Positions 4,746 to 52,230 of a DNA stretch of 64,000 bases are shown here, in pieces. The first letter of the stretch is position 1, and the number at the start of each line of letters is the position of its first letter. Below the pieces are notes generated by a model that was not told the origin of the DNA, made no database searches, and worked only from the letters and a program-made list of their open reading frames with translations. The position numbers and the translations under genes were made by a program. Source of the DNA: an uncultured Paracoccaceae bacterium (lineage in GTDB: Bacteria; Pseudomonadota; Alphaproteobacteria; Rhodobacterales; Rhodobacteraceae); NCBI GenBank assembly GCA_947503175.1, contig CANNCO010000001.1, forward strand, positions 186,001 to 250,000, read 5' to 3'.

Positions 4746-5927
4746 ATGTCAGACGACTGGAACACGCGCACGAAACTCGTGCATTCAGGGATCCGGCGCA
4801 GCCAGTATGGCGAAGTCTCCGAGGCGATCTTTCTGACCCAGGGTTTCGTCTATGACAGCGCGGAAGCCGCCGAGGCCCGGTTCATCCAGTCGGGCGAGGA
4901 TGAGTTCATCTATGCCCGTTACGGCAATCCGACCGTGCGGATGTTCGAGGAACGGATCGCGGCGCTGGAAGGAGCCGAAGACGGGTTCGCCACGGCCTCT
5001 GGCATGGCGGCGGTCAACGGCGCGCTGACATCCATGCTGAAGGCCGGCGACCAAGTGGTCTCATCGCGGGCCCTGTTCGGTTCGTGCCTCTATATTCTGG
5101 AAGAGGTGCTGACGCGTTACGGCGTCGAGGTAACATTTGTCGATGGCACCGATCTGGATCAGTGGCGCGATGCGATCCGGCCCGAGACCCGGGCCGTATT
5201 CCTTGAATCTGTGTCGAACCCCACGCTGGAAGTCATTGATCTAAAATCCGTTTCCGATCTGGCTCATTCTGTCGGCGCGACGGTAATCGTTGACAACGTA
5301 TTCGCCACTCCGATCTTTTCGCGCGCGCTGGAGCAGGGGGTGGATGTGGTTGTTTATTCTGCGACGAAGCATATCGATGGTCAGGGGCGCGCGCTGGGCG
5401 GCATCATCCTGGGTTCGCGCGATTATATCCGCAAGACGGTCGAGCCCTACCTGAAACACACAGGCGGGGCGATGAGTCCGTTTACCGCCTGGGTCATGCT
5501 GAAGGGCATGGAGACGCTCGATCTTCGGGTTCGTGCGCAAGCCGCAGGATCCCAAAAGATCGCCGAAGCGTTGGAGGGCGACGACAGGTTGACGAATGTG
5601 ATCTATCCCGGGCTCGCATCCCATCCGCAGCATGATCTGGCCGTGGCGCAGATGGGGGCGGGCGGCACCGTCGTGGCGTTCGACATCAAGGGTGGACAGG
5701 CGGCTGCGTTCCGGTTTCTGAACGCCCTGAAGATTGTCACGATTTCCAATAATCTGGGCGACGCCAAATCGATCATCACCCACCCTGCGACGACGACGCA
5801 TCAAAGGTTGTCCGAAGGTCAGAGAGAGGCGCTTGGGATCACACCTGGGCTTGTCCGGTTGTCGGTGGGGATCGAGGATACGGATGATCTGATAGCTGAT
5901 CTCAGGACTGCGCTGGACGCGATCTGA
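4746..5927 (+). CDS. metZ: O-succinylhomoserine sulfhydrylase, PLP-dependent
   Basis: Cys/Met metabolism PLP family: YARYGNPTVRMFEERIAALEGAE, YSATKHIDGQGRALGG; SAM-II upstream; start after ggaggg SD. Confidence 0.93.
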   Translation: MSDDWNTRTKLVHSGIRRSQYGEVSEAIFLTQGFVYDSAEAAEARFIQSGEDEFIYARYGNPTVRMFEERIAALEGAEDGFATASGMAAVNGALTSMLKAGDQVVSSRALFGSCLYILEEVLTRYGVEVTFVDGTDLDQWRDAIRPETRAVFLESVSNPTLEVIDLKSVSDLAHSVGATVIVDNVFATPIFSRALEQGVDVVVYSATKHIDGQGRALGGIILGSRDYIRKTVEPYLKHTGGAMSPFTAWVMLKGMETLDLRVRAQAAGSQKIAEALEGDDRLTNVIYPGLASHPQHDLAVAQMGAGGTVVAFDIKGGQAAAFRFLNALKIVTISNNLGDAKSIITHPATTTHQRLSEGQREALGITPGLVRLSVGIEDTDDLIADLRTALDAI

Positions 5928-43447: not shown

Positions 43448-45481
43448 ATGTGGTTGCTTAACAACCTGAAAATAGGCGTCAAACTGCCGCTTGTGATGGT
43501 GCTGATCGGCGTCCTTTCCCTCTATCTTGCCGAGCTCATCGCGTCGGCCCATACGCGCGAAAGCGTTCTTCAGTCCGGGCAGGACCGGTTGATGGCCGTC
43601 GCCGAAAGCCGAACGGCAGAGATGCGAAGCAAACTTCGCTCTGTCCGCACCGACCTGCGTGCAAAATTCTCGAACCCCGTCGTGCTCGAAGCCGCGCGCG
43701 CATTTGTCAGCGCGTTCCAGCTTTACGGCCCGGACGCGGCAGAGGATTTATGGCGCATCTACGTGACCGATAACGACAACCCCGTGAACCTGCGTATGCG
43801 CCTCGTCAATCCCGGCGATGGGTCAAGCTATACGTTGGTCCATCGCAGGTACCATCCTTTCTTTGCGGCGCATACGAGTTCGCAGGATTATTCAGATATT
43901 TACATTATTTCGCCAGAGGGCCGGGTCGTCTACTCCGTCACGAAGAAAGACAACTTTCTCAGAGCGATCGGATCCGAAACCGCGCCGGATTCGCGGGTTG
44001 CGGATCTCTATCGTGCGACCATGAGCAGGCAGCGCGGCGGCACCGACATGATGGCAGATTTCGCGGAGGACGCCCATGGTTCATCGGCTCTGTTCTCGAT
44101 CCCGATCCAGAGCCCCCAGGGCACGATCGAGGCGGTACTGATCATCCGGTTCTCGACGCTGACCCTGACCCAGATCATGCAGCGTCCAGCCGGTCTTGGC
44201 GACACTGGCGAGGTCTTTCTTCTTGGCGAGGATCGCCAGCTCCGTACAAAGCTGCGCGGGGCCGCTCCCGCGGTCCTGCAGACCGGCGGGCGCGATACGC
44301 TGGCGGTGTCCGAGGCGTTCTCGAACCGTGGCGGCGTCCTGCGCCACGAAGACGCAGAGGGCAGAGGTGTGGTGACCGCCTTCGTTCCGATTTCGTTTCA
44401 AGGGTATCGGTATGCCGTGTTCGCACAGCAGTCAGAGGCCGAAATCCTGACCGCGGCGCAACAGCTTCGGGAAGGCATGATGCGTGACGGGATCGTGGCG
44501 CTTTATCTTGTGTCCATTCTCGGTCTCATCCTCGCCCGATCCATGTCGGTCCCCCTGACCCGGGTCGGAGATGTCATGAAACGCGTGGCGCTGCGGGATT
44601 TCGACGGGGCAATTCCCGATCGCACGCGACGCGACGAAATCGGGGGTATCGCGCGTCAACTCGACGCGTTTCGTGCCTCGCTCGCGGAATCCGACGAACT
44701 CGAACGCGAAAACGCGTTCAAGGGCGCGGCGTTTCAAGCCACATCGGCGGCGCTGATGCTGGTGGACCAGAACCTGACAATTATCTATGTAAATCAAAGT
44801 CTTATAAACATCATGAAAGACAATAGAATCGCTATTGACCGACAGGTGCCCGATTTTCGTCCGGATGCGTTGCCGGGCCGAAACGTCACATCCCTTTTTC
44901 CCGGTGCACTTCGGGTGAAATCGCAAGATGGCATCGCCTCCCATTTCCGCGAGGAAATCAGGCTGGGCCAGCGCCACATGAACATCGGGATGGGCCCCGT
45001 TCTGGGCGCCGATGGTGAAGTTCTTGGATATGTCATCGAATGGGAAGACGGAACACAGGCGCAATTGAACAAGGTGGTTCTGGATACAATCGACGGACAT
45101 ATGCCGATTGCCGGTTTCTCGGCCGACGGGCGCCTGATCGATGCGAATGCCCAGTTCGAGGGCTGGCTGGGTGTCAATAAGACCGAATTGCTCGGCCGGA
45201 GCTGGGACTGGCTTTTCGTGCATGACGATGACGGCATTGGTGCCGAGGCGCACCCCAACGACCCCGTTTGGTCGGATGTCGCCAGCTCCGACGGTGAGTT
45301 CGGTCATTTGTTTGAAGTCCGTCCCACGATCGGCGATGGCGCGAAGATGCCTGTCTGCGTCAATGCGGTACGGGATTTCAGTGGTTTACTCCAGCGGTAT
45401 GTCCTGCTCGCACCCGGCTCCGTTTTTCATGGGTTCGACCGCCTCACCGGTCCGGCGTCGTTGGCCGCATGTCCGCAATGA
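43448..45481 (+). CDS. Chemoreceptor-like membrane sensor (periplasmic sensor-HAMP-PAS-PAS) lacking MA signalling domain
   Basis: TM1 + large extracytoplasmic region + TM2, HAMP (RSMSVPLTRVGDVMKRVALRDFDGAIPDRTRRDEIGGIARQLDAFR), two PAS-like regions (ALMLVDQNLTIIYVNQSL; IAGFSADGRLIDANAQFEGWLG); no MA hairpin; stop overlaps cheB start. Confidence 0.82.
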   Translation: MWLLNNLKIGVKLPLVMVLIGVLSLYLAELIASAHTRESVLQSGQDRLMAVAESRTAEMRSKLRSVRTDLRAKFSNPVVLEAARAFVSAFQLYGPDAAEDLWRIYVTDNDNPVNLRMRLVNPGDGSSYTLVHRRYHPFFAAHTSSQDYSDIYIISPEGRVVYSVTKKDNFLRAIGSETAPDSRVADLYRATMSRQRGGTDMMADFAEDAHGSSALFSIPIQSPQGTIEAVLIIRFSTLTLTQIMQRPAGLGDTGEVFLLGEDRQLRTKLRGAAPAVLQTGGRDTLAVSEAFSNRGGVLRHEDAEGRGVVTAFVPISFQGYRYAVFAQQSEAEILTAAQQLREGMMRDGIVALYLVSILGLILARSMSVPLTRVGDVMKRVALRDFDGAIPDRTRRDEIGGIARQLDAFRASLAESDELERENAFKGAAFQATSAALMLVDQNLTIIYVNQSLINIMKDNRIAIDRQVPDFRPDALPGRNVTSLFPGALRVKSQDGIASHFREEIRLGQRHMNIGMGPVLGADGEVLGYVIEWEDGTQAQLNKVVLDTIDGHMPIAGFSADGRLIDANAQFEGWLGVNKTELLGRSWDWLFVHDDDGIGAEAHPNDPVWSDVASSDGEFGHLFEVRPTIGDGAKMPVCVNAVRDFSGLLQRYVLLAPGSVFHGFDRLTGPASLAACPQ

Positions 45482-46563
45482 GCGATATACCGACAGCCGT
45501 CAGTCAGACGCCGCGCAAGGTAGTGATCGTCGACGACACAAGGACAATCCGCGCTCTTTTGCGCGCAACGATAGACGCCGATCCGCGACTGACCGTCGTC
45601 GGAGAGGCCGCCGATCCTTTTGAAGCGCGTGAGATGATCAAACGGACCTCCCCCGATGTCATCACGCTTGACGTCGAGATGCCAAGAATGAACGGGCTCG
45701 ACTTTCTTGAACGTCTAATGCGGCTGCGTCCGATGCCGGTGGTCATGGTGTCGAACAGAACCAAGGAGAGAAGCGCAGATGCCGTGCGCGCCCTGTCGAT
45801 CGGCGCCATCGACTGTGTGGATGTCGCGCGCCTTCAGGCAGACGACGCCCAGCGCGCCCGGCTGACCGAGGCGCTGTTCTGTGCGGCTTCGGCGATCGTG
45901 CGCCACCGGCCCGCGGCCGGCACGGGTTCTCCCGCGCCCGCCGTTGCGGTGCCCGAGTTCCGATGGAACGGGCGGATGGTCGTCATCGGCAGTTCGACCG
46001 GCGGCGTCGAGGCGCTCGATCGGGTCTTGTCCCGGTTTCCCGCGAACTGCCCGCCCACTCTCATCGCGCAGCATATGCCCGAGGCGTTCCTGCGCAGCTT
46101 TGCACAAAGACTGAATGATGCGACTCGGCCGAATGTGCGGCTTGCCAGGGAAGGCGACCTACCCGCACAGGGAGAGGTGCTGATTGCGCCTGGCGGTGAT
46201 CATCACATGGTGTTGACCGGGCGCAACCTCGACCGGGTCGCGTTTCGCCCCGCAACCGGAAGCGAACTCTATGTACCATCGGTCGACATGTTGTTCGCCT
46301 CGGTCATTCCCGCCGCGCCAAAGATTCTGGCGGTCGTCCTGACGGGGATGGGGCGCGATGGGTCAAGGGACCTGCAGGCGCTGAGCGCCGGTGGAGCCAT
46401 CCTGCTCGCGCAAAGCGGTGAAACATGTGTCGTCGATGGAATGCCGCGGGCAGCCCGTGCGACCGGGGCGGTTGATCGGAACATCGCCCTCGATTCCATG
46501 GGCGACGAGATACTGGCGGTCTGCTCGAACAAGCGATCAGCCTCGACATTGCGCCAGGGATGA
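45478..46563 (+). CDS. cheB: Chemotaxis methylesterase CheB (receiver + methylesterase)
   Basis: VVIVDDTRTIRALL, DVITLDVEMPRMNGLDFLERLM, VIGSSTGGVEAL, IAQHMPEAFLRSFAQRLN, VLTGMGRDGSRDL. Confidence 0.94.
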   Translation: MSDIPTAVSQTPRKVVIVDDTRTIRALLRATIDADPRLTVVGEAADPFEAREMIKRTSPDVITLDVEMPRMNGLDFLERLMRLRPMPVVMVSNRTKERSADAVRALSIGAIDCVDVARLQADDAQRARLTEALFCAASAIVRHRPAAGTGSPAPAVAVPEFRWNGRMVVIGSSTGGVEALDRVLSRFPANCPPTLIAQHMPEAFLRSFAQRLNDATRPNVRLAREGDLPAQGEVLIAPGGDHHMVLTGRNLDRVAFRPATGSELYVPSVDMLFASVIPAAPKILAVVLTGMGRDGSRDLQALSAGGAILLAQSGETCVVDGMPRAARATGAVDRNIALDSMGDEILAVCSNKRSASTLRQG

Positions 46564-46573
46564 AAGGGCGGAC

Positions 46574-47077
46574 ATGCGACGTTACATAGCGCAGGGCGAG
46601 CAGGCTATCGGTCATGAACCAGACGACGTTATCACGACGATTCTGGGGTCCTGCGTGGCCGTGTGCCTTCGAGATCCGGTGATCGGTATCGGCGGGATGA
46701 ACCACATTCTGGTACCTTCGGTAGTGATGTCGGATCTGGGTGCGCGCGGGGCGGGTGCCTGTGCGATGGAAACCCTGATCAACACGCTGCTCAAGAAAGG
46801 CGCTCAGAAGACGCGGCTGGAGGCAAAGGTCTTCGGCGGCGCTTCGATCATCGCCGGTCTATCGGATGTGGGATTGAGAAATTCGGAGTTCGTGTTTGAG
46901 TATCTGCAGGTCGAAGGCATCTCCTGCCTGTCCCAAAGCGTTGGCGGGACAATGGCGCGCCAGGTCCGCTTCTGGCCGCATTCCGGGCGGGTGAAGCAAA
47001 GGTTCGTTCGTAACGAAGATGCTCCGATCGTGAAACCCGAGACCGTGCAGCCGACCAACGACCTGGAGTTGCTATGA
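46574..47077 (+). CDS. cheD: Chemoreceptor glutamine deamidase CheD
   Basis: TTILGSCVAVCLRDPVIGIGGMNHILVP, KVFGGASII. Confidence 0.92.
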   Translation: MRRYIAQGEQAIGHEPDDVITTILGSCVAVCLRDPVIGIGGMNHILVPSVVMSDLGARGAGACAMETLINTLLKKGAQKTRLEAKVFGGASIIAGLSDVGLRNSEFVFEYLQVEGISCLSQSVGGTMARQVRFWPHSGRVKQRFVRNEDAPIVKPETVQPTNDLELL

Positions 47078-47286: not shown

Positions 47287-47625
47287 TCAACGTTTCATTA
47301 ACCTGTCAGTCAGGCTCTGGAGCCGCAGAGCACCGCGGATGTCGCTCGCAGGGATGGAGTTGCCCTGAAGATGTATACCTATGGTGCTGGAAACCGCGCC
47401 AAGATCCGTGAGGATCTGCGTGACTCGGTCGATTTCCTGCAGTTGCTGCACCGATGCGCTGTCGGGGCGGATGCTGCCATCCGAGAGCTGACGACCGAGG
47501 ATGGCCTGGATACGCTCCATGACCGCTGCCATCTCGGCGCATTCCTCGGCAACTCCGATCAACAGATCGCCCGCGTCGACTGTCGTTTCGACTGTCTGCT
47601 CGACAGCGTGGCCCGGACCGGTCAC
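47287..47625 (-). CDS. Small helical chemotaxis-locus protein with CheZ-like DxxxQ motif; function unassigned
   Basis: 112 aa, predicted helical; VQQLQEIDRVTQILTDLG (D66xxxQ70); overlaps upstream cheY stop. Confidence 0.7.
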   Translation of the reverse strand: MTGPGHAVEQTVETTVDAGDLLIGVAEECAEMAAVMERIQAILGRQLSDGSIRPDSASVQQLQEIDRVTQILTDLGAVSSTIGIHLQGNSIPASDIRGALRLQSLTDRLMKR

Positions 47626-48008
47626 AGCCGCCCCACGATGGCTTCGATCGCGGCCTTCAAATCGTTGGGCTGAAAGGGCTTTGCAATGAAATTGTTCATC
47701 TTCAGTGCGCGCCCCCTGTCGATGATCTCCTTGTCTGCGCGCCCCGTGATAAGGAGAAATCCAACGCCCGCGGTCTTTGCCCCGTTTCGCAAGGCGTGTA
47801 ACAGAGCCAGACCATCCATTCCGGGCATGTTGAAATCCGATATGACCAGATGGACGGGAGATCGTTCAATCGTCTGCAAGGCACTCGGACCGTCGGCCGC
47901 AGTGGCGATGGAACCGATCCCCATACCTTCCAGCGCCTGGGTAATCAGGCCGCGGCTTGTCGACATATCGTCAACAACAAGCACCCTCAATTGGTCTCTC
48001 AATGCCAT
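47622..48008 (-). CDS. cheY: CheY-like response regulator
   Basis: RVLVVDDMSTSRGLI, LVISDFNMPGMDGLALL, FIAKPFQPNDLKAAIE. Confidence 0.92.
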   Translation of the reverse strand: MALRDQLRVLVVDDMSTSRGLITQALEGMGIGSIATAADGPSALQTIERSPVHLVISDFNMPGMDGLALLHALRNGAKTAGVGFLLITGRADKEIIDRGRALKMNNFIAKPFQPNDLKAAIEAIVGRL

Positions 48009-48011
48009 GTT

Positions 48012-48923
48012 CTAAGCTTTCTGAGTTTGGCGGGGCATGCGAATATCGCCCCGTCGCTGATAGCTGGTGACCCCGGTCGAAAGGAAACCCTCTGCCTCTG
48101 GTGTCTGCATGCGTTCCGAATGACCAAGAAACAGCCAGCCCTCGGGTCGAAGAGCGGCGTGGAAGCGGGGCCAAAGCAGTTTTTGAGTTGCTTCGGAGAA
48201 GTAGATCAGAACGTTCCGGCAGAAGATGACATCGAACTGCCCGCGCATCGGCCAAGTTTCGATAAGGTTAAGGTGGCGGAAGACCACGAGATCTCTGACA
48301 TTCTGCCGGACCTGACGCTGGCCGGGATCCGGGCCATCTTCAAGAAAACTGCGATCGAAATCGGTTGGGACACCATCGAGGAGCCTGCGATCGTAGACCG
48401 CCTTTCGGGCGACGGAGAGCACGTTCTGATCGATGTCCGTAGCAAGAACTTTCACGTCATGGTTTGCGATCGTTGGTTCGGCGGCCAGCAAAGCCATCGC
48501 GATCGAGTAGGGTTCCTGCCCGGTCGAGCAGCCGGCAGACCAGATCCGGATCCGTCCGCCACCCCGGGCCCGTTCCATCAGATCGGGCAGAACCTGCTCC
48601 TGAAACGTTTCGAAATGGTGATTCTCACGGAAGAAATGCGATACGTTTGTTGTAAGCGCACAGATCATGTGGCGGAGTTCTTCCGCGCCCTCTTTGTGCT
48701 CGATGAAATCGAGATAGTCCCCGAAATCCGTATGGCCGGTGATCTTCAGCCGGCGGTTGAGTCGTGACTGGACCATGGCCCGTTTTGCATCCGGAATGGA
48801 CAGCCCGGCTTCGCGTTCCGCAACCGCTGCGACACGCTGGAACATGCCTGGATCGAGCACGGTCAAATCGCTCGCTCCGATCTGGGTGGAAGCGAAGTTC
48901 ACTTTCTTTGCCGCCGACATCAC
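48012..48923 (-). CDS. cheR: Chemotaxis protein methyltransferase CheR
   Basis: RIRIWSAGCSTGQEPYSIAMAL, VKVLATDIDQNVLSVARKAVY, FDVIFCRNVLIYF. Confidence 0.95.
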   Translation of the reverse strand: MMSAAKKVNFASTQIGASDLTVLDPGMFQRVAAVAEREAGLSIPDAKRAMVQSRLNRRLKITGHTDFGDYLDFIEHKEGAEELRHMICALTTNVSHFFRENHHFETFQEQVLPDLMERARGGGRIRIWSAGCSTGQEPYSIAMALLAAEPTIANHDVKVLATDIDQNVLSVARKAVYDRRLLDGVPTDFDRSFLEDGPDPGQRQVRQNVRDLVVFRHLNLIETWPMRGQFDVIFCRNVLIYFSEATQKLLWPRFHAALRPEGWLFLGHSERMQTPEAEGFLSTGVTSYQRRGDIRMPRQTQKA

Positions 48924-49399
48924 GCTGCAACTTCTTGCGCGCTTGGTACGACCGCAGGCAGATCGAGAATCCGGATCATGCGGCCTTCCAGTATGGTGAG
49001 TGCCTCGATGAACGTGTTGCCCTGATCGGCGGTCATCTCCGGCGGCGTGTGCAACTGTGTTCGCGGGAACGACAGTATGTCTGATACGGCATCCACACGC
49101 AGGCCCACTGTCCGACCGTCGATATCCACGACAATAATCACGTTGCGGTCGTTAGGTTCCTCGACATCGAGCCCAAGCCGCAAGGCAAGGTCGATCACCG
49201 GAAGGACGGCGCCGCGGAGATTTATCACACCCCGGACATAGGCAGGGGCGTGAGGGAGCGACGTCGCGCGGGTCCAGCCGCGAATCTCCCGAACGCTCAT
49301 GATATCGACCGAATACTCGCTTTCGCCGACGCGAAAGGACAGAAGTTCGACCTCGTCAAAATCCTGAAGCTTTTCTGTGGTCTCTGTAATCCCGGCCAT
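48920..49399 (-). CDS. cheW: Chemotaxis coupling protein CheW
   Basis: LLSFRVGESEYSVDIMSVREI, APAYVRGVINLRGAVLPVIDLALRLG. Confidence 0.94.
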   Translation of the reverse strand: MAGITETTEKLQDFDEVELLSFRVGESEYSVDIMSVREIRGWTRATSLPHAPAYVRGVINLRGAVLPVIDLALRLGLDVEEPNDRNVIIVVDIDGRTVGLRVDAVSDILSFPRTQLHTPPEMTADQGNTFIEALTILEGRMIRILDLPAVVPSAQEVAA

Positions 49400-49408
49400 C
49401 TCTTGCTC

Positions 49409-51583
49409 CTATCCGGTCCGTGCGAGTTGGTGTGGGCGGCTTTGTCCGCTGGCATTCATCAGAAGATCGGCCGGATCCAGAATGAGGGCGATCTGACCAT
49501 CGCCCAGGATCGTGGCGGCAGCGACACCCGGGACGTGGCCGTAACTGTCCTGAAGCCCCTTGATCACGACCTGTCGTTGATCTTCTATCCCGTCGACCAC
49601 AAGCGCGGCACGCTGGCCGTCTTCATGCGAAATAAGAAGGACGATGGCGCCTTCGTAACTCTCGCGCGGCGGGGAATACCCAAGCTCGGTCCCCAGATTG
49701 ATCAGGGGAACGAAGGTGTCGCGAACGCGCACTACTTGTGTCTGGGGCCCCAGGGCGCGCGCATCCTCTTTCTGAAGTGAAAGCGTCTCGGATATGGCGC
49801 TAAGGGGTACGACCAGTGTTTCCGAACCGACACGGACAACCATCCCGTCAAGGACGGCCAGTGTCAGCGGTAGCGAAATCGAGAAAGTCGTGCCTTCACC
49901 CGGTGTGGAGGTGATTGTAATCCGGCCGCCAAGGGCGCTGATGGCGTTTTTTACCACGTCCATACCGACGCCGCGGCCCGACAGGTTCGACACTTCGCTC
50001 GCGGTCGAGAACCCCGGCAGGAACAAAAGGTTGTCGATCTCGGTGTCGCTCAGGTCCTGATCGGGTGAAATCAGGCCTTTGTCGGTTGCGATCTGACGTA
50101 CCTTGGGCCGGTTTATGCCGCCCCCGTTATCGGCGACTTCGATGATCACACGACCCGACCGATGCGACGCCCGGAGTGAAACGATGCCTTCTTCGGGTTT
50201 GCCCGCAGCGACGCGGTCGTCCGGGGTTTCAAGTCCGTGATCCACGGCATTGCGGATCATGTGTGTGAGCGGATCCGAAAGTCGTTCGATAACGGTCTTG
50301 TCGATTTCCGTGCCTTCGCCCTCGGTCTTCAGGCGTACGGTCTTCCCGACATCCGACGATGCCTCGCGGACGATTCTTGCCATGCGCTGAAACAGCGACT
50401 TCACCGGTTGCGCGCGGATCAGCATCACGCTGTCCTGAATGTCACGGGTCAGTTGCTGAAACTCGTCCAGGCCCGAGGCGATCTTGGTGTTTCCGGACAG
50501 GCCTGATGCATCGACGGACTGGGCCAGCATCGATTGATTGATCACCAGTTCACCCACAAGATTGACCATGCGGTCGATCCGGTCGAGATCGACCCGGACA
50601 GTCGCGCCTGGTTTCGAGCGCTGCGTATCTGCGGGCCGCTCGGCAGCCTGTGTGACTGTGTCCTCGGACATTTGCGGCCGGATCGGTTCCGGTACGGGCT
50701 CGGCCGGTAAAGATGCCTCCGGTTCGGCGTCGACCGGGAGCGGCGCAGCCGTGACCTCGTCGCCCGAGCCGCCCGGATCGTCCGGCCCCACTTCGGTGAT
50801 TGTCAGGCTGCACAGCCCATCGACAAAGTCGAACACATCGCGGATCGCGTCGTCATCGGCATTCGTATGCAGTTCGATCTGCCATGCCATAACGTTGGCC
50901 GTACCGTCATACTCCTCGAGATCGGGCAGAGCCTCCCGGGTGCAGCAGACAGTGCTTTCGCCCAATCCCGCCAGGGCGCGCAGCAGGAACAGTGGTTCGT
51001 TGCCGCTCCGGTACAGTTCGGGTTCCGGCGAGAACCGGATTTCGACGTGGCGGAGAGCGTTCGCTTCTGTTTCGGTGGCTTCCGTGACGGCGGCGGAATC
51101 GGCTTCGAGATCGGGCAGACCGTCAATCGCCGGCAGATCGAGCGATATGCCCATCGGCTGGAAATCCACGACCTCTTCTTCTGCCGCCTGCCCGTCCTGG
51201 CCGGCGAGTTCTTCGAGTTGCGACAGGAGGTTGGAGCGCACCGCATCATCGATATCGCCGCCGTCTCGTGCGACCCTGACCAGATCGGAAAGCAGATCGC
51301 CGCATTGAAAGAACAGCGCAATGGTTTCGGCTTCGGCCTCAAGCCGCCCGGCCCGCATCTCGTCCATCGTGGTTTCGAACGAATGGGCGAAGGCCACAAG
51401 ATCGTCCAGCCCGAACGCACCGGCCCCGCCCTTGATCGAATGGACGGCGCGAAAGGCGACGTTGATCGTCTCGTCATCCGCTTCGCCGCCCTCCATCATC
51501 TGAAGCGCGTCCTGCAACGCCTCCAGCAATTCTTCGCATTCGATGAAGAACGAGGCGCGGATCTCCTGCATCGGATCGCTCAT
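49409..51583 (-). CDS. cheA: Chemotaxis histidine kinase CheA
   Basis: HPt AFRAVHSIKGGAGAFG; MVNLVGELVINQSML; DPLTHMIRNAVDHGLETP; GRGVGMDVVKNAISALGG; CheW-like C-terminus. Confidence 0.96.
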   Translation of the reverse strand: MSDPMQEIRASFFIECEELLEALQDALQMMEGGEADDETINVAFRAVHSIKGGAGAFGLDDLVAFAHSFETTMDEMRAGRLEAEAETIALFFQCGDLLSDLVRVARDGGDIDDAVRSNLLSQLEELAGQDGQAAEEEVVDFQPMGISLDLPAIDGLPDLEADSAAVTEATETEANALRHVEIRFSPEPELYRSGNEPLFLLRALAGLGESTVCCTREALPDLEEYDGTANVMAWQIELHTNADDDAIRDVFDFVDGLCSLTITEVGPDDPGGSGDEVTAAPLPVDAEPEASLPAEPVPEPIRPQMSEDTVTQAAERPADTQRSKPGATVRVDLDRIDRMVNLVGELVINQSMLAQSVDASGLSGNTKIASGLDEFQQLTRDIQDSVMLIRAQPVKSLFQRMARIVREASSDVGKTVRLKTEGEGTEIDKTVIERLSDPLTHMIRNAVDHGLETPDDRVAAGKPEEGIVSLRASHRSGRVIIEVADNGGGINRPKVRQIATDKGLISPDQDLSDTEIDNLLFLPGFSTASEVSNLSGRGVGMDVVKNAISALGGRITITSTPGEGTTFSISLPLTLAVLDGMVVRVGSETLVVPLSAISETLSLQKEDARALGPQTQVVRVRDTFVPLINLGTELGYSPPRESYEGAIVLLISHEDGQRAALVVDGIEDQRQVVIKGLQDSYGHVPGVAAATILGDGQIALILDPADLLMNASGQSRPHQLARTG

Positions 51584-51589
51584 CCCGGG

Positions 51590-51955
51590 CTACCCCGCAA
51601 CGATCTGCAGGGATTTGACCAGTTTCTCGGGGTCAAACGGTTTCACGATCCAGCCGGTCGCGCCTGCATCGCGGGCGCGCGATTTCAGCTCGGCCGAACT
51701 TTCGGTGGTGAGCACCAGAATCGGTACCGCGCGGTATTCGCTTTGTGCGCGCACCGCGTCGATAAAGCCGAACCCGTCGAGACGGGGCATGTTTATGTCC
51801 GTGATGATGACGTCGGGTTTCAGCCCGTCGAGCACCTCAAGCCCATGTTGCCCGTCTTCGGCCAGATGGGTGGTCATGCCAGCGCCGTTCAATGTGTATT
51901 TCAGCATGTCGCGGATCGTGCGGCTATCATCCACTGCCAGAACATTCAGGCTCAT
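51590..51955 (-). CDS. cheY: CheY-like response regulator (second)
   Basis: NVLAVDDSRTIRDMLKYTL, DVIITDINMPRLDGFGFI, WIVKPFDPEKL. Confidence 0.94.
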   Translation of the reverse strand: MSLNVLAVDDSRTIRDMLKYTLNGAGMTTHLAEDGQHGLEVLDGLKPDVIITDINMPRLDGFGFIDAVRAQSEYRAVPILVLTTESSAELKSRARDAGATGWIVKPFDPEKLVKSLQIVAG

Positions 51956-52230
51956 GTGCCGGCCTCCCAGGTCAGGTCGGCCGGTTTGACACCAAGCGTT
52001 GCAAGAGCGGCGTCCGCTTTGTCCGAAAGGGCGTCGACGACAAAACTGTTCTCGTCCTTTTCCCAGGACGCGCGCGCCACAAGCAGCGTCTGAAGTGCAT
52101 GGGCACCCAGATGATCGACCGCGCTGGCATCGAGCGTGATCGCCTTGCCCCGCGCCACGGTCAGTTGCGCCAGCAATCGTTCAGATGCAGGCAGATCAAG
52201 ACGTGCCTCAAGCTCCAATCGCTCTGTCAT
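51952..52230 (-). CDS. STAS-domain protein of chemotaxis operon
   Basis: ITLDASAVDHLGAHALQTLLVARASW; overlaps cheY start. Confidence 0.78.
   Translation of the reverse strand: MTERLELEARLDLPASERLLAQLTVARGKAITLDASAVDHLGAHALQTLLVARASWEKDENSFVVDALSDKADAALATLGVKPADLTWEAGT

Follow-up and report, generated by a model that had tools for sequence, protein, structure and literature searches.

Organization of the che cluster

The 64,000-nucleotide stretch of DNA from an uncultured Paracoccaceae bacterium that was analysed here (the window) carries a che cluster on both of its strands. On the forward strand a gene encoding a receptor-like sensor of 677 aa (43448-45481) is directly followed by intact copies of cheB (45469-46563; PF01339 3.8e-51, PF00072 4.1e-21) and cheD (46574-47077; PF03975 5.5e-23). 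The reverse strand holds the second copy of cheY (47622-48008), cheR (48012-48923; PF01739 1.4e-65), cheW (48920-49399), cheA (49409-51583), the first copy of cheY (51590-51955) and a gene encoding a STAS-domain protein (51952-52230), all recognized by the Pfam scan. In addition, a 112-aa protein is encoded beside cheY (47287-47625, reverse strand), which has no Pfam match above the cut-off and carries the motif DRVTQ (DxxxQ). It is a candidate phosphatase of the CheT/CheZ kind, with a homologue at the same place in locus L054; CheT has been described (PMC12654446).

The reading frame of the sensor gene is open already from 43400, and 43448 is its likely start since the motif MxxLxxLKIxxKLPL found there is also the start of its relatives. 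Its stop codon TGA (45479-45481) overlaps the ATG at 45478 (ATGA), and a second, earlier in-frame ATG of cheB lies at 45469. This overlap makes it probable that the sensor is produced along with CheB and CheD.

Domain structure of the sensor

Hydropathy indicated two hydrophobic segments, at about residues 7-33 and 348-368. The first corresponds to TM1 (about residues 9-31; 43472-43540) and is followed by a periplasmic dCache domain (residues 36-335; 43553-44452; dCache_1, PF02743, 6.8e-12), which is also seen in the model and in matches to dCache chemoreceptor folds. TM2 (about residues 348-368; 44489-44551) lies in a modelled helix of residues 335-381 and runs into a HAMP domain (residues 362-413; 44531-44686; PF00672, 1.8e-07). 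Two PAS stretches come next (PAS_9, 2e-10), namely PAS1 (residues 427-537; 44726-45058) and PAS2 (residues 553-654; 45104-45409). The AlphaFold2 model, built on a 29-sequence alignment (pLDDT 80.6, pTM 0.52), gave the same order TM1-dCache-TM2-HAMP-PAS1-PAS2 and stops at the last strand of PAS2, after which there is a low-confidence tail. The first-pass annotation had read two TM segments, an extracytoplasmic sensor region, HAMP and two PAS regions from the sequence, and Pfam, hydropathy and the model all agree with it.

After PAS2 there remain a short non-homologous tail and the stop codon (45410-45481), at the place where the relatives go on into an MA domain about 350 aa long. The Pfam scan gave no MCPsignal (PF00015) match in the sensor up to E=1, and the MA domain and its hairpin tip are also absent from the model. 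No MA domain is encoded further downstream because cheB and cheD come directly after, so the absence of a hairpin tip before cheB, with ATGA at 45478, was correctly noticed in the first place. The C-terminal pentapeptide for CheR/CheB tethering, an optional feature of MCPs, is missing as well, the protein ending in LTGPASLAACPQ. The sensor thus has the TM sensor and HAMP domain of an MCP (Pfam, model and hydropathy) together with the che-operon position and the descent, and lacks the MA coiled-coil hairpin by which MCPs are defined. It is not a sensor histidine kinase, as neither DHp nor HATPase domains were found in it by the Pfam scan.

CheA and CheW couple to the MCP hairpin, and CheR, CheB and CheD act on residues of the MA domain. 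Having neither MA domain nor pentapeptide, both of which are present in relatives at the same locus, the sensor cannot serve CheR, CheB and CheD as a normal substrate or CheA and CheW as a normal partner, as had been proposed for its relation to its neighbours. Its exclusion from the array and from methylation follows, as a consequence of these absences, from established MCP biology.

PAS1 is of the Aer2 type (3vol, E 2.5e-08; 4hi4, TM 0.78 by 4hi4 length). To locate the residue corresponding to Aer2 H234, the QW tryptophan of 3vol was taken to be Trp283 and H234 was placed 49 residues before it. H234 is the heme ligand of Aer2 (PMC13401364) and heme binding in this PAS cluster depends mainly on that histidine (PMC10468136). 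In the alignment, the corresponding site of the sensor (44894-44902) lacks the histidine and two residues, reading LF--P for VFHxxP. Of 26 full MCPs, 20 have the histidine, whereas it is missing from all three sensors without MA described below, which have LF--P or LV--P. The loss of the histidine is not strictly tied to that of the MA domain, given that the other 6 of the 26 full MCPs do not have it either.

Related loci and origin of the sensor

The best cheB neighbourhoods were compared in a family sample of 397 genomes. A scan with the cheB profile gave few close Rhodobacteraceae. With the sensor itself as query, a first scan of the genome contigs returned no relatives, and the matches of tblastn against plasmids were all distant, with identities below 60% and for the most part an annotation as MCP. 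In the 17 loci where both genes were recognized, the gene just upstream of cheB encodes a full MCP of about 1010-1095 aa, which has the N-terminal domains of the sensor plus MA and usually a WEDF-like pentapeptide at its end. The MA domain was confirmed in the two that were scanned (PF00015, about 1e-50). Homology between the window sensor and the full MCPs runs out at the end of PAS2, and the sensor therefore equals such a receptor minus the last roughly 350 residues or more. A neighbouring cheB clade has a different gene at this place, encoding a protein of roughly 220 aa (L070:4162-4836, L073:4269-4937; similar ORFs in L071, L074, L077 and L078), and a Hint_2 domain was matched in both of those that were scanned.

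A sensor without MA ending at cheB was also found in G258 (L066) and G316 (L067), which belong to two other genera and whose cheB genes are among the closest relatives of the window cheB. Stop and start overlap there too (ATGA and TGATG), and a TonB-like gene lies upstream of the sensor in all three genomes. Among the best cheB neighbourhoods of the sample these are the only three genomes with this form. In G316 a shift by one base within a stretch of T splits the copy, either genuinely or through faulty assembly; for the alignment the two parts were joined, with an X at the shift. In a tree of residues 1-540, with a midpoint root only, the three sensors form one clade (100/100) that sits on the longest inner branch (0.88 changes per column).

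The full MCPs at the same locus in other genera could suggest that the window sensor is itself a full MCP with a frameshift, or an artefact of local assembly or sequencing. There is practically no chance of this, as cheB begins within the stop codon, so that an MA domain would not fit before it in any of the frames, and two independent genomes show the same structure; the shortened form is thus no local accident. The comparison beside cheB proposed in the first-pass annotation has therefore shown a conserved truncation. Of the two things that it had named together as speaking against a genuine truncation, relatives with a full MA domain do exist, whereas the window sensor has no frameshift. 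As far as sequences can tell, same-locus homology and the tree show one old loss of MA from the che operon's own receptor. The idea of a degenerate MCP was right about this origin from a full MCP at the locus but only half right about the present state, as the form without MA is shared by three genera with normal or better conservation.

Sequence conservation

Domain identity was regressed on cheB identity for 136 pairs of full-MCP loci and the three pairs of sensors without MA were placed on this regression; the pairs are not independent, so that z is only descriptive. At equal cheB identity, TM1 (+1.5 to +3.2) and TM2-HAMP (+1.6 to +2.5) are above the expectation from full MCPs and PAS1 somewhat above it (+0.6 to +2.1), while dCache (about -0.7) and PAS2 (-1.1 to +0.2) are about as expected. 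TM1 is the best-conserved part in the three sensors. Between the window sensor and that of L066 dN is 0.60 and dS 2.5, the latter near saturation. By part, dN is 0.20 for TM1, 0.40 for HAMP, 0.43 for PAS1 and 1.04 for the second half of PAS2, which is fast-evolving.

Simulated neutral drift of the sensor ORF produced on average about 4-27 stops at 0.1-1.25 substitutions per site, so the intact frame is not due to chance. The simulation and the domain conservation both disfavour random decay, and these sequence data indicate that the gene was constrained for most of its life without MA. One clade over three genera with normal or better domain conservation argues for a retained function; the loss of the gene in related genomes is a counterweight to this argument. 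The explanation that we prefer, though only at about even odds, is that selection has kept this che-operon receptor without MA, in at least three genera, as an accessory membrane sensor outside the CheA/CheW array and unmethylated.

Other receptors of the genome

The window's genome (G000) has three MCPsignal domains, each in a protein with its own N-terminal part. As none of them is an MA-only protein, a relocated or detached MA domain of the sensor is ruled out. One of these proteins, encoded on contig C1, is a HAMP-PAS-PAS-MA receptor of 847 aa ending in DDDWKDF. It might form mixed dimers with the sensor, which would lend it its dCache domain. A receptor of the same HAMP-PAS-PAS order exists in each of the three genomes, its TM2-HAMP being about 33-38% identical to that of the sensor in the same genome, and TM1 and HAMP, the would-be interface, are the best-conserved parts of the sensor. 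Nevertheless such dimers are improbable: an identity check for co-evolution gave no same-genome excess of similarity between the two proteins, the periplasmic part of the paralogue is unlike that of the sensor, the paralogue of G316 has an in-frame stop, and different MCPs do not as a rule form mixed dimers. The earlier proposal of a modulatory sensor acting through HAMP and PAS contacts with another receptor is in line with the conservation peaks in TM1 and HAMP, but the co-evolution check with this receptor was negative.

In G316 the receptor (L227:3355-5955, contig C72) has a single in-frame TAG that interrupts it after PAS2 and before MA. An MA-only ORF follows the TAG, starting at 4837 and ending in DDWEDF, and the split is either genuine or due to the assembly. 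Contig C1 of the window's genome also encodes a PAS-PAS-PAS-MA protein without obvious TM (L224:1863-3392 and following; G000:C1:648362-), located immediately before an ORF that, judged by eye, resembles several CheW domains joined in a single protein; this may be a second chemosensory set.

Flagellar genes and loss of the sensor

A genome-wide search found no FlhA, FliP or intact flagellin in the window's genome, which is 100% complete in 16 contigs; FliG is still present. The flagellar cluster (G000:C3:631577-637500; L219:16578-19901 and L220:1-2586) has motB-flgE, a flagellin remnant, an FlgN-like gene, the gene for a rod-binding protein and flgD. The remnant has 46 codons and is 70% identical to G141. 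Judged against the fla1 gene order motB-flgE-flgK...fliC-flgN-...-flgD (PMC12363192), the cluster has lost the part from flgK into fliC by an internal deletion. With FlhA, FliP and intact flagellin missing, the strain probably has no flagellum. FlhA, FliP and flagellin were also not found in G258 (93% complete), and all three are present in G316, which has flagellar genes together with a sensor without MA. Loss of MA is thus not a consequence of loss of the flagellum.

The main rival to an accessory sensor is a slowly dying relict, useless after the loss of MA and decaying inside a chemosensory system that is being abandoned. In its favour, the gene is absent from G141 (of the same genus as the window) and G197, both of which have cheB, it is frameshifted in G316, the heme histidine is lost, and flagellar export and flagellin are missing in the window's genome and in G258. 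However, the sensors form one clade over three genera, two of which have an unbroken frame, TM1 and HAMP are conserved above the level of working MCPs, drift at this divergence would leave many stops, and the che genes are intact. We consider a relict possible though rather doubtful. The same losses, the small number of carriers (only three), the fast second half of PAS2 and the lack of co-evolution also count against an accessory sensor.

That the sensor is conserved in a host lacking flagellar export could suggest a use other than swimming, with an output outside chemotaxis through PAS contacts, for example to an unlinked kinase or a c-di-GMP enzyme. This is very unlikely, since in each of the three genomes the gene has stayed right at cheB, its stop overlapping the cheB start.

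Possible role of the sensor

If the gene does encode an accessory sensor, the most likely mechanism is that a periplasmic dCache signal would pass through TM, HAMP and PAS1 to another protein by direct contact. The candidate partners are an MA-bearing receptor or a cluster protein such as CheB, and the role would be useful but dispensable. More tentatively, there may be a class of che-operon sensors without MA and heme that tune the chemosensory system, e.g. the activity of CheB or a partner receptor, by TM/HAMP/PAS contact outside the array and methylation; this is a speculative proposition that we hold to be less probable than the retention of the sensor itself.

The assumption is that a chemoreceptor works solely by way of its MA hairpin. 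If an MCP-derived sensor has been kept across genera after a single loss of MA, encoded together with CheB and CheD, there would be a second way for a membrane sensor to operate within a chemosensory system or next to it. Even as a relict it would provide a series for comparison, from full MCP to sensor without MA to absence of the sensor, in genomes of which some have also lost flagellar genes.

Comparison with known systems

In the open-access literature we found no described example of a receptor without signalling domain or of an MCP-derived che-operon sensor without MA. The closest counterparts are the dCache-HAMP-PAS-PAS-MA receptors that other Rhodobacteraceae have upstream of cheB (for example L041, L042 and L107), which share with the sensor the locus, the domain order up to PAS2 and the TM1 and HAMP motifs, at about 23-32% identity over the alignment. 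Unlike the sensor they have MA, mostly a WEDF-like pentapeptide and, in 20 of 26, the PAS1 heme histidine. The PAS-heme receptors of the Aer2 type (P. aeruginosa/Vibrio) resemble it in the fold and sequence of PAS1, whereas the sensor has neither the heme-ligand histidine nor MA, and has dCache plus TM where Aer2 has poly-HAMP. Amino-acid receptors such as PctA, Tlp3 and Mlp24 share the periplasmic dCache fold, although the ligand motif is not established in the sensor and MA is again the difference. The TM-HAMP-PAS layout is also that of sensor histidine kinases of the WalK type, with weak profile matches, but the sensor has no DHp or ATPase domain. The protein is an MCP-derived che-operon sensor without MA, a variant on known receptors.
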